Of a stretch of DNA of 64,000 nt, positions 4,701 through 50,579 are shown piece after piece; position 1 is the first letter of the stretch; each line of letters opens with the position of its first letter. Below the pieces are notes generated by a model. That model saw nothing but the letters and a program-made list of their open reading frames with translations, made no database searches and had not been told where the DNA came from. The DNA comes from Stigmatella aurantiaca DW4/3-1 (GTDB taxonomy: Bacteria; Myxococcota; Myxococcia; Myxococcales; Myxococcaceae): the NCBI RefSeq assembly GCF_000165485.1, contig NC_014623.1, positions 2,499,501 through 2,563,500 of the forward strand, written 5' to 3'. Both the position numbers and the translations under genes were made by a program.

Positions 4701-4739
4701 AGTTGTACTTGCCGGAGACGCGCAAAGCTGGATCGTGGG

Positions 4740-5160
4740 TCGATGAGGGGCTTTCTACCCGCCAAGGGCTGACGGACCTGGAAGACCTCGACGGAAAGGC
4801 CCTCCGGGCCCGCTCCTTTGCCCACCGCACCGACGGGCTGGACCCCGAGTTGGGGGCCCTGGCCAACCTCCTGGTGGACAAGTACCGGCTGTCCAAGCGG
4901 CTGGTGAAGGACGCGCTGTCAGACATGCTGGGTGTCGAATTGTGTGTGGGCTACGTGCAGTCAGCCGCCCCGGTGCATGCGGATGAAACCGGATGGGTGG
5001 AGGGGCGCGAGGGCGGACGGGGCAAGCGCGCCTGGCTCTGGAGGGTGGCCACCGCGCGGGTAGCCCTCTTCCATATCGCCACGAGTCGAGGCGGCAAGGT
5101 GGCACGGCCCTGCTGGGGCAGGAAGAGAAACCTCTTCTTCACATGGTCCCACCGCGTGCG
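4740..5160 (+). pseudogene. IS66-family transposase (TnpC) remnant
   Basis: A frame open from 4703 contains IS66 TnpC pieces: GLDPELGALANLLVDKYRLSK, then VELCVGYVQSA, then the conserved catalytic-core stretch HADETGW followed by KRAWLWRVATARVALFHIATSRGG. Between YVQSA and PVHADETGW the usual linker is missing, and sense is lost after KVAR, so both ends and an internal part are deleted. The fragment starts within 40 nt of the first codon of the divergent Ig-repeat lipoprotein. It is dead; the family call rests on the HADETGW block and flanking order. Confidence 0.75.
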
Positions 5161-5169
5161 CGATGGGAC

Positions 5170-5712
5170 CATGGCTCGCCTTCGCTTCCCAACGTCGATC
5201 TCCCCAAGCCGAGCGCTCCCAAGCCGGAGTTCTCCCCCAACCCGCTCAGCGGCGTCGGCAACGTGCTCAGCGGCATCGGTAACGGCGTGGGCGGGGCGCT
5301 CTCCGGCGCCGGTGAGGTGGTGGTGGGTGTCTGGCGGGCCTGGCCGACGCCGGCCTCAACGCGGCCCACCACGCTTCCGGGCGCCATGGCCATGCTCAAC
5401 CCCCAGGCGATGGACCCGTCCGCGCCCGGCGGCGCCCCCCTGGAGGCCGCCCTGCCTTCGCCCACCGACGCTCTCCAGTCGAGCCTGGACAACATCCTCG
5501 ACTCCGTGGCCGGCGCCCTCGCCACCGCCACCCAGGCCATCGACACCCTCCAGCAGCTCATGAACCCCTCCGCCGCTCACAGTCAGCTCTCCCAGCCGTC
5601 TCCTTCCCCGAGGAGAAAGGAGTTGTCGCCGGAGTTCGTGAAGAAGCTGGAGGAGTTCCCCAAGGGGACCGCTCCTCCTCTCAAGCTTAAGAGCAACACG
5701 TCGCCGGAGTAG
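5170..5712 (+). pseudogene. Unrecognised C-terminal coding remnant after IS66 debris
   Basis: This frame runs directly on from the IS66 remnant (in a different frame) to a TAG at 5710-5712 and encodes about 180 residues: a proline-rich stretch, a glycine-rich part (LSGVGNVLSGIGNGVGGALSG), then an amphipathic helical region (DALQSSLDNILDSVAGALATA) and a charged tail. Codon use looks coding, but there is no credible start, so it is probably the 3' end of a gene cut by the insertion. Glycine-rich plus amphipathic segments occur in exported or effector-type proteins, but I do not recognise it. Confidence 0.4.
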
Positions 5713-5849
5713 CTCCCGCCCTATCGGCTCTGGGGCTTTCCCTTATGTGTCATCCGTGAAAACAGTTTGACCCACTTGTACCAGTAAACCGTGTTTTGAT
5801 AGGCTTCTGCCCCTCCAATCCCCTGGCAGCAGCCGCAACGGAGGTACGT

Positions 5850-7679
5850 GTGCCCACGGCCGAGTCGATTCCCTTGTCTGATTACATCGAGCAAAAGGTG
5901 GGTAGATTATGTGATGCGGCCCAGATGCACACAGAGCGCGGTGAAATCATCACGACGCTCCGGCGCCTGTTCTTGCCCTGGGGCAGTCAGCCTTTGGCCC
6001 ACCAGTCTTCCTGGGCCTCGGAGATCGCGGACGATAACACGCCGGTCGAGTTCTCGGTGGCCATCGCCGGTGAAAAGGTCGAACTCCGGGTGCTGTTCGA
6101 GCCGCAAGGGGATGAGCCCACCTTGAGTGCGCAGCGGGCCGCGGGCCTCGAGTTGCACGATCGGCTCGTTCAGGAGTTCGGGGTCCATGCCGGCATGTTC
6201 CGCCGCGTGCAGGATCTGTTTCTCGAAGGGACGATCGAGGGTGCTTTCGCGGTCTGGAGCTCCGTCGTCTTCGCTCGCGGCAAGCGCCCCCTCTTCAAGA
6301 CCTACCTCAATCCCCAGGCTCACGGGAGGGCCCTGGCGCCAGCGCTTGTCGAAGAGGCGCTTGGACGCCTGGGCATCCATGGCGCGTGGGCCTCGCTGTC
6401 GAAGGCCGCGGCGCGCCGGGGCCCGTACCTCGATGAGATCAAATATTTCGCGTTGGACCTCCTGCCGGATCAGGCCCGCGTCAAGGTGTATGTCCATCAC
6501 CATGGGGCCACCCCCGCCGACCTCGAGGCGGCCTGCGAAGCCTCCTCCAATTACGTGCCTGGCAAGGCCAGCGGCTTCGCGCGCGCGATGCTCGGAGGCG
6601 ACGCGGCCATGTCGCTCCGGGCCCCCTTCACGTGCCACGCTTTCCGCCGCGAACACAGCCCGCGCCCGGTGACGACGGTCTATGTGCCGGCCTGCGCCTA
6701 TGCCCGGGACGACGAGACGGTCCGTGAGCGGGTTTCCACGTACCTGGAGAGCCGGGCCATCGGCACCACCGCGTACAACACCCTCGTCAAGGGCTTCGCC
6801 GATCGTCCGCTGGAGGCGGGCGTGGGAATGCAGAGTTGGGTCGCGCTGCGGGACGATTCTACGGAGGCCAGGGTAACGCTCTACCTGGCCTCCGAGGCCC
6901 GTCACGTCCACCCCCCCGGAAGCGTCCCCGCCCCCACGGCGGCTCCCATGCGCTTCGCCTCGGCCGAGGAGGTGGTCCGCAGTACGGCGCGAATGGCCCT
7001 TGACCAACACCCCCTCATGCGCCGCATCGCACGGGACATGGATGGCGAGGCGCTCTGGCTGCTCATTCATAACCTGTACGAGGGGACCTCGAAGCACTTC
7101 TCGCGCTGGCTCGCCCACGTCACCGCCCTGGCCCCCGATGAGGCGATTCGCAGCCTGCTCGCCCGTCAGCTGTCTCAGGAGCTGGGCGAAGGCGACCTGG
7201 CGCGCTCTCATGGGGTCTTGATTCGCCGCTTCCTCCACGGGCTCGAAGGGTTGAAGCCCCGGGGGTTCAGCGAGGGGGACCTGGAGCCGGGACGGCGGCT
7301 CGCCAGGCGTCTGGCCCAGCATTACCTCTCGGCCGATCCTCACGAGTGTCTCGCCACGCTCATGGCCGGAGAGGTCGCCGCCCACCAGGTCATCCAGTTC
7401 GTGAACGGCATGCTCAAGCGCATCCCCCGGCCGATGGAGGCCTCGACGCTTGAGTGGCTGAGGCTTCATGACGAGGTCGAAGGGGACCACGCCGAGGAGT
7501 CGTTCTTGCTCGCCCGGCAGCTCCCGTCCGAGCCTCCCGTCATCGCCGCCGTCGCGCGTGGCGCGGTGGGCCTGCACCAGGCGCTCTGGACCCTGTTTGA
7601 TGAACTCTACCCATCCGCTGACAATGCTGTTCACAGCTCCGTCAGCGCTGCCGGGACGGCGTACCATGCGGCGGGTTGA
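5850..7679 (+). CDS. ABBA/DMATS-type aromatic prenyltransferase fused to a heme-oxygenase-like diiron domain
   Basis: A 609-residue two-domain protein. GTG 5850 is preferred over TTG 5796 because ACGGAGG lies 5 nt upstream. Residues about 10-370 match bacterial indole/aromatic prenyltransferases of the dimethylallyltryptophan-synthase fold: FKTYLNPQAHG (with the allylic-pyrophosphate-binding Lys and Tyr), the paired strand RVKVYVHHHG, the YVPACAY strand, and a terminal RVTLYLASE strand. Residues about 385-595 look like the Haem_oxygenas_2/HDO family: SQELGEGDLARSHGVLIRR, LMAGEVAAHQ and LHDEVEGDH supply Glu and His residues in the order expected for a diiron site. The protein would thus prenylate an aromatic acceptor and oxidise the product (or precursor). 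It overlaps the next gene by 14 nt. The domain calls are firm; the acceptor (tryptophan, indole or other) and the oxidation are unknown. Confidence 0.8.
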   Translation: MPTAESIPLSDYIEQKVGRLCDAAQMHTERGEIITTLRRLFLPWGSQPLAHQSSWASEIADDNTPVEFSVAIAGEKVELRVLFEPQGDEPTLSAQRAAGLELHDRLVQEFGVHAGMFRRVQDLFLEGTIEGAFAVWSSVVFARGKRPLFKTYLNPQAHGRALAPALVEEALGRLGIHGAWASLSKAAARRGPYLDEIKYFALDLLPDQARVKVYVHHHGATPADLEAACEASSNYVPGKASGFARAMLGGDAAMSLRAPFTCHAFRREHSPRPVTTVYVPACAYARDDETVRERVSTYLESRAIGTTAYNTLVKGFADRPLEAGVGMQSWVALRDDSTEARVTLYLASEARHVHPPGSVPAPTAAPMRFASAEEVVRSTARMALDQHPLMRRIARDMDGEALWLLIHNLYEGTSKHFSRWLAHVTALAPDEAIRSLLARQLSQELGEGDLARSHGVLIRRFLHGLEGLKPRGFSEGDLEPGRRLARRLAQHYLSADPHECLATLMAGEVAAHQVIQFVNGMLKRIPRPMEASTLEWLRLHDEVEGDHAEESFLLARQLPSEPPVIAAVARGAVGLHQALWTLFDELYPSADNAVHSSVSAAGTAYHAAG

Positions 7680-9063
7680 GTTCCCCCGGCTGGATGGCGA
7701 ACTGCTCGCGGACCCCCAGGACTGCGCGCAGGCGGCCATCAACTTCGGCCAGTTCCTCCAGGGAACTCCGCAAGCCGTGCTGCGGCCGCGTTCCAAGGAG
7801 GCCGTCATCGACATGGTCCGGTTCTGTGACCGGGAGGGCATCCCTGTCACCGTGCGAGGACAGGGCCACACCTGTTTCTATCCGGCGGCCAACGGCGGTG
7901 TCCTCATCGACATGTCGTCTTTGCGCACCCTCCACGAGATAGGCCCGGGCTTCGCGCACGTGGATGCCGGCTGCACCTGGGAACAGGTACTCGATGCCAC
8001 GCTGGCGGCGAGCCCCCCGCAGGTCCCGCCGGTCATCAATGGCTTCTCCCGGCTGTCGATTGGCGGAACGCTCTCCGCCGGCGGCATCAGCGGGATGGCC
8101 TACTTCTGCGGGTGCCAGGTGGAGCACGTGTTGGAGCTCGAGGTGGTGACGGGGGACGGACGGCTGGTCCGTTGCTCGGAGCACAGCGAGCGGAGGTTGT
8201 TCGAAGCCGTCCTGGCGGGACAGGGCCAATGCGGCATCATCCTGAACGCGCGCGTCGCCTTGAAGCCCGCGAAGTCACGGACGCGCGAATACACGTTCAT
8301 GTATCCAAGCCTGGCGGCGCTCCTGGAGGCCATGAACGCGCTGCTCGACGAGGCGGAGCACGCCCGCTCCCCCCGGCTTGATCTCATCTGGGGCAGTGCG
8401 GCGCGCACCCCCGCCGGCTGGGGGTTCGCCCTTCTGGCGAATGCCCACTACGAGCCGGGCCATGAGCCTGACCGTACCGGACTGTTTCGCGCCATCACCC
8501 CGCCCGCGCCCCCGCTCGAGTTCGATGGGACGTTCCGCGAGTACATCCGGCAGCTCGACGAAAAGATCCTCGCGATTCCCACCGGGGGGGGCCGCTACCC
8601 GATGTGGCTCGACATGTTCGTTCCCAGCGAGCGGCTCGTCGAGTACGCGGGCGGCATCCTCGACCGGACCCAGGATGACGACGTGGGGCAGGGCGGCTTG
8701 GTGCTCTTGTTCCCGCTCGAAACCCGGACCTCGACACGCCCCCTGATGAGGCTGCCGGCCTCAAAGCGTGTCTACCTCTTCGATTACTGCCGCAACACGG
8801 ATCCCATCTCCGCGGCCAAGGCCGAAGAACTCCTCACGCGGAACAATGCGCTCTACCAGGAGGGCGTGGCCGCTGGCGCCACGGCCTATCTGATTGGCGC
8901 CGTCCGGATGACCCCGGCCGATTACCAGGTGCACTATGGCCCTGTCTGGCAACGGTTCGCCGCGGACAAGCGCGAGTTCGATCCCCGCCTGACCCTCGGA
9001 CGGGGGACCCCGATTTTTTCCCACATGCTTCGTGACGAGACGGCGCGAGGAGAACCGCGATGA
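7666..9063 (+). CDS. FAD-dependent oxidoreductase, cytokinin-dehydrogenase-like
   Basis: A 465-residue flavoprotein. ATG 7666 overlaps the 3' end of the prenyltransferase gene; a start at 7624 is possible. FAD_binding_4 (PCMH) region: TVRGQGHTC, whose His is at the covalent-FAD position of the family, then GGVLIDMSSL, RLSIGGTLSAGGISG and LELEVVTGDGRLVRCS. The GGTLSxxGISG block and a C-terminal FDPRLTLGRGTPIF match cytokinin dehydrogenases more than berberine-bridge enzymes. Cytokinin dehydrogenases oxidise an N-prenyl amine, so an enzyme acting on a prenylated or aminated product of its neighbour is plausible. No signal peptide, so cytoplasmic. Its stop overlaps the P450 start (ATGA). Confidence 0.8.
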   Translation: MRRVEFPRLDGELLADPQDCAQAAINFGQFLQGTPQAVLRPRSKEAVIDMVRFCDREGIPVTVRGQGHTCFYPAANGGVLIDMSSLRTLHEIGPGFAHVDAGCTWEQVLDATLAASPPQVPPVINGFSRLSIGGTLSAGGISGMAYFCGCQVEHVLELEVVTGDGRLVRCSEHSERRLFEAVLAGQGQCGIILNARVALKPAKSRTREYTFMYPSLAALLEAMNALLDEAEHARSPRLDLIWGSAARTPAGWGFALLANAHYEPGHEPDRTGLFRAITPPAPPLEFDGTFREYIRQLDEKILAIPTGGGRYPMWLDMFVPSERLVEYAGGILDRTQDDDVGQGGLVLLFPLETRTSTRPLMRLPASKRVYLFDYCRNTDPISAAKAEELLTRNNALYQEGVAAGATAYLIGAVRMTPADYQVHYGPVWQRFAADKREFDPRLTLGRGTPIFSHMLRDETARGEPR

Positions 9064-10418
9064 CAACCCTGGCCCGGGAAAGCGAGCTGCCCCTTCCTCC
9101 CAAGAGCCCCTCCTTGCCGGTCCTGGGGGACACCCTGGCGTTTTTGCGCGATGGCCCGGGACTGGTCGAGACACGAGGGCGCCAGCTCGGCCCCGTCTTC
9201 CAGCTGAACCTGTTCGGGCAGCCCACGGCCGTGCTGCTCGGGGAAGAGGCGAACCGCTTCGTCCTTCACTCCGGCACCAAGCACTTCAATTGGAGATACG
9301 GTTGGCCTCCCCACTTTCGTGACCTGTGGGTGGACACCATCTTCCTGGAAGATGGCGACCCGCATCGGCTGCGGCGCAAGCTCTTGATGCCCGCCTTTCA
9401 GACCGAGGCCATCGAGGGCTACCTGCCCCAGATGGAGAAGTCGCACCTGGCCGCCATCGCCCGGTGGGAGAAGGCAGGCCGGATGGTCTGCATCGAGGAC
9501 TTCGGACGTGTGACGCTCCGGGTGGCCAACCAGCTCTTCCTCGGGGACGATACCGAGGACGGCGCGGAGGACCTGCCGCAGTGGATGAAGCATTGGCTGG
9601 AAGGGTTCTACTCGGTCCCCATCCGTTTCCCGCTGGGCACGTTCTCGCGGGCTCTGGCCGCCCGGCACAAGCTGATCAGCCATGTCGAGCGGGCCATCCA
9701 CTCCCGCCGTGAGAAGAAGACCACGGATGCGCTTGGACTGCTCACGGGCTTCAAGGACAGCGATGGGGTGGCGCTCACCACGGACCAGCTCGCCTCCGAG
9801 ATGCTGGTCCTGGTGGCCGCGGGGTTTCACACCACCACCTCGATGCTCACCTACGTGATGTTCGCGCTGGCCGAACATCCGGACGTTCTGAAGAAGGCCC
9901 GGCAGGAGCAGCGCGATCTGGGCATCCAGGGCAGCGTCACGCTGGAGCAGATTCACCGGATGTCCTACCTCAATGCCGTCATGGCCGAGATCGAGCGGCT
10001 CTACGCGCCGGTTCCGTTTGGTTTCCGCCGCGTCGTCGAGCCGTTCGAGTTTCACGGCTACCGGATCCCCGCGGGCTGGCAGGTCGCCTGGTCGGTCGAG
10101 GGCGCCCAAAAGGACCCTCGCAATTACGCGGACCCCCTGCGCTTCGACCCGGAACGCTTCACCCGGGCCGGCAGCGACGCCGACCACCGCGGCGATTTCA
10201 AGCTGGTGGGTTTCGGCGGTGGACCGCGCATGTGCATCGGAACGAACTTCGCCAAGGTGCAGGCGAAGCTCCTGATGTCCCACCTGCTCCGTGGATACGA
10301 GTGGGAGGTGGAGCCGGACCAGGATCTGCGTCCCCGGTTCACGCCGGAACGCACACCCAAGAGCGGGCTTCGCGTCCGCTTCAAGAAGCGCGCAGGCCCA
10401 CCGGATTCTCCGGCGTAG
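9060..10418 (+). CDS. Cytochrome P450
   Basis: A complete 452-residue soluble P450. Hallmarks: I-helix oxygen-activating motif in VAAGFHTTTS, K-helix ExxR in AEIERLY, the PERF-type motif FDPERF, and the haem-binding loop FGGGPRMCIG with the thiolate Cys. The start codon overlaps the flavoprotein stop (ATGA), so it is translationally coupled as third gene of the operon. A class I P450 would need ferredoxin and reductase from elsewhere; none is encoded here. It probably hydroxylates, epoxidises or couples the prenylated aromatic intermediate. Cluster membership is sure, reaction unknown. Confidence 0.92.
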   Translation: MTTLARESELPLPPKSPSLPVLGDTLAFLRDGPGLVETRGRQLGPVFQLNLFGQPTAVLLGEEANRFVLHSGTKHFNWRYGWPPHFRDLWVDTIFLEDGDPHRLRRKLLMPAFQTEAIEGYLPQMEKSHLAAIARWEKAGRMVCIEDFGRVTLRVANQLFLGDDTEDGAEDLPQWMKHWLEGFYSVPIRFPLGTFSRALAARHKLISHVERAIHSRREKKTTDALGLLTGFKDSDGVALTTDQLASEMLVLVAAGFHTTTSMLTYVMFALAEHPDVLKKARQEQRDLGIQGSVTLEQIHRMSYLNAVMAEIERLYAPVPFGFRRVVEPFEFHGYRIPAGWQVAWSVEGAQKDPRNYADPLRFDPERFTRAGSDADHRGDFKLVGFGGGPRMCIGTNFAKVQAKLLMSHLLRGYEWEVEPDQDLRPRFTPERTPKSGLRVRFKKRAGPPDSPA

Positions 10419-50037: not shown

Positions 50038-50579
50038 GCTGGGCGGGCCCTGCGTGGAGCAAGGGGCTCGCGGGCCTGCTGGCCGGAGTGGGGCTGCTGG
50101 GCTGCGGCGGTTCCAACTCGCTGTCGGGCAGCGTGGAGGAACTCTTCCCCCTGGACGTCTCCCGCGTGGAGGTGCTGCGCAACGCCGAGGCGTTGCAGGT
50201 CAGCTACTACCGGAACGCGGGGCAGGATGTGGACTTGGTGGTGCGTCTCACGCTGGCCACAGAGGGGCTGGACCTGCGTCCGGGCAAGAAGGTGAACCTG
50301 GCGGGCACCACGGAGGCCGGGACGGCCCGGGCGACGGTGGTCCACCTGTCCGCCGGGGAACCCGCCCGTCTCTTGGGGCCGGTGGACAAGGGAGACCTCT
50401 CTCTGGACGAGGGGGGCGAGATTGGCCAGTCCACGAGTGGCGACTTCTCCCTCTCTTTTCAGCGGGGAGACAGTTACGGCGCGGGCCGCAGCCTGGAGGG
50501 CCGTTTCACCGCCGTGGCACAGGATGCGGGCTTTGGTCCGGAGCCTTTGCCACCGGGGGGCCTTCTGCCCCTGCCGTGA
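50034..50579 (+). CDS. Small lipoprotein, partner of the propeller lipoprotein
   Basis: 181 residues. ATG 50034 overlaps the propeller stop (ATGA). Signal and lipobox LLAGVGLLGCGGS. The mature part is one beta-rich domain: SGSVEELFPLDVSRVEVLR, LQVSYYRNAGQDVDLVVRL, KVNLAGTTEAGTARATVVHL, FSLSFQRGDSYGAGRSLEGRF. Its end GPEPLPPGGLLPLP is proline-rich. I do not recognise the family, though S-G-S-V-x-E-x-F-x-L and L-x-G-x-F-x-A recur in many myxobacterial lipoproteins. Coupling to the propeller protein suggests that they act together. Confidence 0.7.
   Translation: MSWAGPAWSKGLAGLLAGVGLLGCGGSNSLSGSVEELFPLDVSRVEVLRNAEALQVSYYRNAGQDVDLVVRLTLATEGLDLRPGKKVNLAGTTEAGTARATVVHLSAGEPARLLGPVDKGDLSLDEGGEIGQSTSGDFSLSFQRGDSYGAGRSLEGRFTAVAQDAGFGPEPLPPGGLLPLP

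Follow-up and report, generated by a model that had tools for sequence, protein, structure and literature searches.

In the window (the whole 64-kb stretch of Stigmatella aurantiaca DW4/3-1 DNA analyzed here), a three-gene operon opens with a gene that joins a DMATS indole prenyltransferase and a heme-oxygenase-like diiron (HDO) domain in a single polypeptide, followed by genes for an FAD-linked oxidase and a cytochrome P450. The fusion is genuine and not an isolated case: it belongs to a wider DMATS-HDO association in which the HDO domain can stand on either side of the prenyltransferase. The explanation we favor, and consider probable with some reserve, is that the N-terminal DMATS domain would use DMAPP to dimethylallylate the indole ring of L-tryptophan, that the C-terminal HDO domain would use two irons and O2 to oxidize the amino-acid part of the resulting prenyl-tryptophan, and that the FAD oxidase and P450 would tailor the product afterwards. 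The fusion protein is probably bifunctional, as the initial annotation had proposed in calling it a prenylation-oxidation enzyme, and this remains the best reading; the activity of both halves, the prenylation of L-tryptophan with DMAPP, the binding of two metals, the activation of O2, the role of prenyl-tryptophan as the HDO substrate, and the order of the steps are inferred and have not been demonstrated.

The fusion lies in a stop-free frame of 639 codons (5760-7676, forward strand), in which TTG 5796 is the earliest possible start codon. GTG 5850, preceded by a GGAGG motif at 5840-5844, is the likely start, so the previously annotated extent of 5850-7679 holds and the protein comprises 609 aa; residue numbers below count from this codon except where a 627-aa numbering is stated. 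The protein has a single match in its own 10.26-Mb genome. The order of DMATS followed by a C-terminal HDO domain runs unbroken in frame in 15 proteins, including that of the window, and for this reason an assembly error or a frameshift joining two genes is unlikely and was rejected. The features discussed here are collected in the table.

Table. Features of the fusion operon and of a conserved protein found beside AetD-like genes (L numbers denote loci).
Feature	Position	Strand	Basis
GGAGG, likely ribosome-binding site	5840..5844	+	5 bases upstream of GTG 5850, read directly
DMATS-HDO fusion gene, GTG start, 609 aa	5850..7679	+	
DMATS (ABBA-fold) indole prenyltransferase domain	5877..6905	+	TIGR03429, PF11991, local DMATS profile, fold
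Heme-oxygenase-like diiron (HDO, PF14518) domain, named C-type	6942..7625	+	PF14518, C-type profile, fold
Six core HDO ligand codons (E444, H454, E508, H540, E544, H547)	7179..7490	+	alignment of 15 C-type HDO domains
FAD-linked oxidase, cytokinin dehydrogenase family	7666..9063	+	PF01565 + PF09265 (scored on longer frame from 7468)
Cytochrome P450, CYP120-like	9060..10418	+	PF00067 E 1.2e-63; 2ve3 (P450 120) E 6.8e-85
Conserved ~200-aa protein	L046:11839-12444, L042:6771-7376, L049:13921-14517, L050:10841-11437, L212:6791-7381		
Conserved ~200-aa protein, further copies	L215:6664-7359, L216:8551-9243, L218:8274-8975, L217:7405-7977		

Both halves of the protein were recognized by curated profiles. 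For the prenyltransferase half, PF11991 scored 51.2 bits against a cut-off of 25 (Pfam), and TIGR03429 scored 167.2 bits against a cut-off of 163.85 over residues 18-364 of the 627-aa frame (NCBIfam), while a local DMATS profile, of which the window protein is itself one row, matched at E 2.4e-138. For the HDO half, PF14518 scored 42.3 bits against a cut-off of 28.9 over residues 432-590 (Pfam), and a local profile for this type of domain, here named C-type, matched at E 4e-97, again with the window as one of its rows; some of the loci scored with the local DMATS and HDO profiles had also contributed to building them. An AlphaFold2 model computed on a 28-row alignment (mean pLDDT 87.5, pTM 0.82) was used in place of a single-sequence fold (pLDDT 39), and it contains two folded domains separated by a low-confidence linker at residues 378-383. 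The initial annotation had proposed that one polypeptide joins the two domains, had quoted sequence motifs from both, all of which are present in the protein, and had held that the Glu and His residues of the HDO half stand in the expected order, as the alignment bears out at six core positions. It had also named what would refute it, namely no profile match for one of the halves, a frameshift, or missing HDO ligands; each was examined and none was found.

In the prenyltransferase half, model residues 21-383 match DMATS structures at Z scores of up to 45, and the ABBA fold is met in full (Z 45, rmsd 2.1-2.2 over 348-356 residues to CymD and 6-DMATS). The nearest structure by sequence is 6zry, titled 6-dimethylallyl tryptophan synthase (E 2e-49), which is also among the top fold matches (Z 44-45). 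Eight residues (E85, R98, K168, Y170, R228, K230, Y232, and Y363 in the 627-aa numbering) are invariant across 28 prenyltransferase rows, and these columns presumably include the catalytic acid and the diphosphate-binding shield. The prenyl acceptor might be another aromatic compound, such as an indole-containing peptide or a diketopiperazine, instead of free tryptophan, and the PDB matches to the DMATS fold do include enzymes for indolactam V and brevianamide F. The best sequence and fold matches, however, include tryptophan prenyltransferases (6zry, 6zrx, and CymD with Trp), no peptide-synthesis gene is found among the three operon genes, and the partners seen in relatives (tryptophanase-like and AetD-like) belong to families acting on free tryptophan or its derivatives, so that we regard such an acceptor as very improbable and retain tryptophan.

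The HDO half superimposes on HrmI over 218 residues (model residues 384-610, Z 22.3, rmsd 2.6) and on CADD (residues 388-606, Z 21.6), and in profile alignments its motifs line up with the corresponding motifs of BesC and CADD, with a sequence match to BesC at E 0.0011. The 3His/3carboxylate ligand set is complete in the window, as judged by alignment and not by model coordinates, and the same six positions are kept in 11 of the 15 C-type domains. An additional helix-1 glutamate, E411 (codon 7080-7082), is present solely in the window, L056b, L057, and L059 among the C-type domains aligned; it could be the fourth carboxylate of a described 3H/4C subset of HDOs (PMC13108848). AetD was not among the matches of the C-type profile at E<=10, and the profile-profile probability was 2.6%; the window HDO was therefore rejected as an AetD orthologue, and the chemistry of AetD is not simply transferable to it. 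C-type domains were always joined to DMATS, both at 4/4 places with E<1e-90 in 195 genomes (the next best match being at 6e-15) and at 5/5 places with E<1e-60 in eight further genomes, six of which had been picked because of a known DMATS-HDO locus.

The wider association was surveyed by whole-genome searches of 59, 195, and 282 genomes, which gave matches in 10, 28, and 13, respectively, with the first two sets overlapping. A scan of genome contigs with an alignment as query contributed the best 80 of 181 relatives; the same scan with a single-protein query returned no relative. Because loci were gathered by similarity to the window's protein or by one DMATS motif (best 80 of 181), the frequencies given here are no census, and since the phylum searches scored only some first-look candidates per genome (6, 4, or 14), places may have been missed. 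After duplicate removal, the collection held 45 non-actinobacterial DMATS genes (39 from myxobacteria and relatives, 6 from cyanobacteria) and 56 actinobacterial ones; a weak DMATS match, L209, lies outside the loci examined. An HDO-type domain, fused or elsewhere in the locus, accompanies 37 of the 45 non-actinobacterial genes (33/39 in myxobacteria and relatives, 4/6 in cyanobacteria), and an intact HDO of either kind is present in the locus for 30 of them, while neither kind was found at any of the 56 actinobacterial loci. The arrangements include a C-terminal C-type domain (15 genes, 11 intact and 4 degenerate), an N-terminal AetD-like domain (7 genes, 6 degenerate and only L051 intact), a C-terminal AetD-like domain (4 genes, all intact), and a separate AetD-like gene in the locus (14 genes, some on top of a fusion). 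The eight genes without an HDO-type domain are L054, L055, L061, L066, L070, L107, L119, and L128; the L119 gene is in two pieces and the L128 contig ends two bases past the frame. Likewise, the L060 contig ends three bases past its stop-free frame, and flanks are short at L051, L222, and L223 (1.8-2.7 kb on one side) and at L121 (3.5 kb). The phylogenetic tree comprised 50 rows, covering 41 of the 45 non-actinobacterial genes (L054, L055, L119, and L128 were left out) and 9 of the 56 actinobacterial ones.

On this tree, exchange of one HDO type for the other can be observed among close relatives. The window groups with L224, L056a, and L058 (support 100/100); L224 and L056a carry a C-type HDO without its metal site together with an adjoining intact AetD-like gene, L058 has a C-terminal AetD-like domain in place of the C-type HDO, and in the window, the C-type HDO is intact and the 64 kb contain no AetD-like gene. 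A similar exchange separates L039, L040, and L041, which are C-type, from L049, which has a separate AetD-like gene about 4.5 kb away. The fewest switches between the two HDO types on the tree number six, a count for which there was no shuffled control. An AetD-like gene occurs in the locus of only one of the 11 intact C-type genes, L056b, and there it adjoins the degenerate copy L056a. This Polyangiaceae metagenome-assembled locus (L056:7884-13943) contains two DMATS-HDO fusions on either side of the AetD-like gene; the HDO is degenerate in one of them and intact in the other.

Several relatives have a degenerate HDO half, so that catalysis should not be presumed in each fusion, and the four C-type domains without a metal site indicate that a non-catalytic role exists in the family. 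A purely structural or regulatory HDO half (serving in dimerization, as a lid, or as a substrate channel), with the prenyltransferase alone active, is thus possible for the window, given that decayed copies exist: the HxxxExxH motif is lost with the frame intact in 4/15 C-type and 6/7 N-terminally fused AetD-like domains, so that the HDO domain has been kept without its metal site. The window, however, retains all six core positions and the helix-1 glutamate, although its clade members L224 and L056a no longer have theirs, and the searches of the window for genes resembling AetD, tryptophanase, or an FMO found none. Judged by ligand positions, the copy in the window does not belong to the decayed ones, and we consider a role without chemistry distinctly unlikely for it; an oxidizing HDO half remains the preferred interpretation.

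The second type of DMATS-linked HDO is assigned, from sequence comparison, to the family of AetD. A profile of 12 DMATS partner proteins matched nothing in the PDB other than AetD entries, over almost their full length (E 1.2e-70). In AetD, the irons are bound by H79, H172, and E176 and by D76, E140, E176, and H179 (PMC10654658). Among the 19 intact DMATS-linked members, the ligand positions D/E76, H79, E140, H172, E176, and H179 are kept in all and Y167 in 17, whereas HxxxExxH is missing in the N-terminal fused domains of L042, L043, L046, L047, L048, and L050. At position 146, the residue that clamps the indole in AetD, 15 of the 19 have Gly, Ala, or Thr; Ala or Gly also stands there in the six strong AetD-like proteins inspected outside DMATS loci, which makes it no marker of a prenyl substrate. 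In the 195 genomes, 6 of the 14 AetD-like places at E<1e-48 are fused to or near DMATS and 8 are not; six of these eight neighborhoods were read, and no DMATS was found in them.

Several further observations were made at AetD-like loci. The genome of the window encodes, far from it (L217, G000:C1:1402663-1403319), a diverged AetD-like protein with about 21% identity to AetD and with the ligand positions kept, and comparable copies (E ~1e-34 to 1e-41) turn up in many genomes from the same family. AetD-like genes, whether or not a prenyltransferase is present, are repeatedly accompanied by one encoding a conserved protein of about 200 aa, which is also found near 1.40 Mb in the genome of the window; two members were scanned without a Pfam match, and the profile of this protein gave only weak PDB matches, the best (E 0.019) to a relative of NO-binding heme sensors. 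Styrene-monooxygenase-like FAD enzymes are found at the DMATS loci L042, L046, L049, and L050 (Smoa_sbd was matched in L050, with which the other three copies cluster), and two of these four loci also have tryptophanase-like and P450 genes.

In actinomycetes, Ozaki and colleagues described two cluster types that process prenylated tryptophan further: type A pairs the prenyltransferase IptA with a tryptophanase, and type B pairs the prenyltransferase SCO7467 with the flavin monooxygenase SCO7468 and yields 5-dimethylallylindole-3-acetonitrile (PMC3617294). We propose that the HDO domain would take the same side-chain step, and that in myxobacteria and cyanobacteria AetD-like proteins, adjacent to sister prenyltransferases or fused with them, would do so as well. 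In agreement with the published types, a tryptophanase-like gene lies within 165 bases of DMATS at 53 of the 56 actinobacterial loci; of the remaining three, an FMO-like frame is found at L130 but not at L124 or L133. Among non-actinobacterial loci, no tryptophanase accompanies any of the 30 rows with an intact HDO, while one is present in 5 of the 10 rows without (L042, L046, L061, L070, and L221), a non-overlap that gives a Fisher p of 0.0004 when kinship is ignored (40 rows, L060 left out). A kinship-aware test was not significant (six independent pairs, with two to four showing opposite changes, none the same change, and the rest no difference; median p 0.25), and the corrected pattern is therefore suggestive only. 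Five non-actinobacterial rows have neither an intact HDO nor a tryptophanase (L043, L047, L048, L066, and L107); at L107, the sister of L115, tblastn found no AetD-like gene, but an FMO-like frame lies about 6.5 kb away. Furthermore, at the cyanobacterial loci L038 and L065 an AetD-like gene occurs together with an FMO-like one, so that the slots do not strictly exclude one another. The assignment of the side-chain step to the HDO is read from the pattern of loci with these caveats.

The HDO domain might act elsewhere than on the prenyl-tryptophan side chain, for instance on free tryptophan that has yet to be prenylated, on the prenyl moiety, or on a different amino acid. AetD accepts unprenylated tryptophan with about 35% conversion, 5,7-dibromo-tryptophan and tryptophan each giving the indole-3-carbonitrile (PMC10654658), and the nearest solved relatives of the window HDO (BesC and CADD by sequence, at E ~1e-3, and HrmI and CADD by fold) are described as acting on lysine derivatives or on one of their own residues (PMC13108848). 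Against this, the same DMATS clades carry AetD-like partners instead, and the second enzyme of type B prefers prenyl-tryptophan to tryptophan (Km 0.57 uM versus 3300 uM; PMC3617294). We judge another substrate unlikely, and the second reaction is most probably an oxidation of prenyl-tryptophan at its amino-acid portion, although its product is not established. By analogy with AetD and type B, nitrile or oxime chemistry would be the leading guess, with skatole or another side-chain product possible.

The remaining genes of the operon follow the fusion gene, with the ATG of the FAD oxidase overlapping its end by 14 bases and the ATG of the P450 sharing a four-base ATGA overlap with the stop of the oxidase. 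The best PDB matches of the FAD oxidase are cytokinin dehydrogenases (E 4e-43); of the 41 non-actinobacterial DMATS genes included in the tree, 17 have a relative of this oxidase nearby, against none of the 56 actinobacterial ones. At E<=1e-20, neither a tryptophanase nor, with an FMO-like query from L038, a flavin monooxygenase was matched in the 64-kb window, so that it meets the definition of neither type A nor type B, and a tryptophanase-type cluster was rejected. The genome does contain five Beta_elim_lyase-family genes over the cut-off, none within the window, and a tryptophanase acting from outside the operon is thus not excluded. Elsewhere in the window, a frame without a Pfam match lies upstream of the operon (4703-5563), a stretch of which we take to resemble an IS66-type transposase and which is perhaps a mobile-element remnant, and one tRNA-like gene of undetermined anticodon was found at 50047-50130 (ARAGORN).

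The indiacens, prenyl indoles of the myxobacterium Sandaracinus, were considered as a lead for the type of product. Indiacen B has been made from 4-iodoindole (PMC4660955). Sandaracinus is not named among the record titles of the best 80 of 181 relatives, and the word "indole" is absent from the text of a paper on Hyalangium metabolites (PMC10959286).

A broader proposal, evenly poised in our judgment, is that myxobacteria and cyanobacteria possess a third, undescribed type of prenyl-indole cluster, in which diiron HDO enzymes, recruited repeatedly from two separate branches and in either fusion order, oxidatively remodel the prenyl-tryptophan side chain. The window would be its single-polypeptide version, the C-type branch would perform indolic amino-acid chemistry so far assigned to no PF14518 enzyme, and the old HDO would persist as a pseudoenzyme after exchange. 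No account of a DMATS-HDO link was found in our searches of the open-access literature (subscription papers and bioRxiv preprints were outside the scope), and the 2026 HDO review contains no word beginning with "prenyl". The association links a much-studied family of DMATS biocatalysts to a sparsely validated superfamily and supplies a substrate prediction for the entire C-type branch. AetD-type proteins are known from a brominated cyanobacterial toxin pathway, and they are now predicted to act on prenyl-tryptophan in other bacteria, which points to prenylated indole nitriles or similar compounds. Intact, decayed, and exchanged HDO domains all occur among the sister proteins, a natural series in which to ask why an oxidase domain is retained once dead.

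About a dozen members of the HDO superfamily have been functionally validated (PMC13108848). HrmI, BesC, and CADD are the closest solved structures found for the window HDO, which differs from them in being fused to a prenyltransferase in an indole-type operon. AetD (and SktA) shares with it the HDO fold and the 3His/3carboxylate ligands, and the AetD substrate is tryptophan-derived, with close AetD relatives standing beside or inside sister prenyltransferases; the window HDO nevertheless comes from a separate branch. The type A and type B clusters of actinomycetes have a DMATS-type tryptophan prenyltransferase, as is inferred for the window, and combine it with a side-chain-processing enzyme. 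In contrast to both, the myxobacterial window lacks a tryptophanase-like or FMO-like gene and has as its partner a predicted diiron HDO within the same polypeptide, in an operon with a cytokinin-dehydrogenase-like oxidase and a P450.
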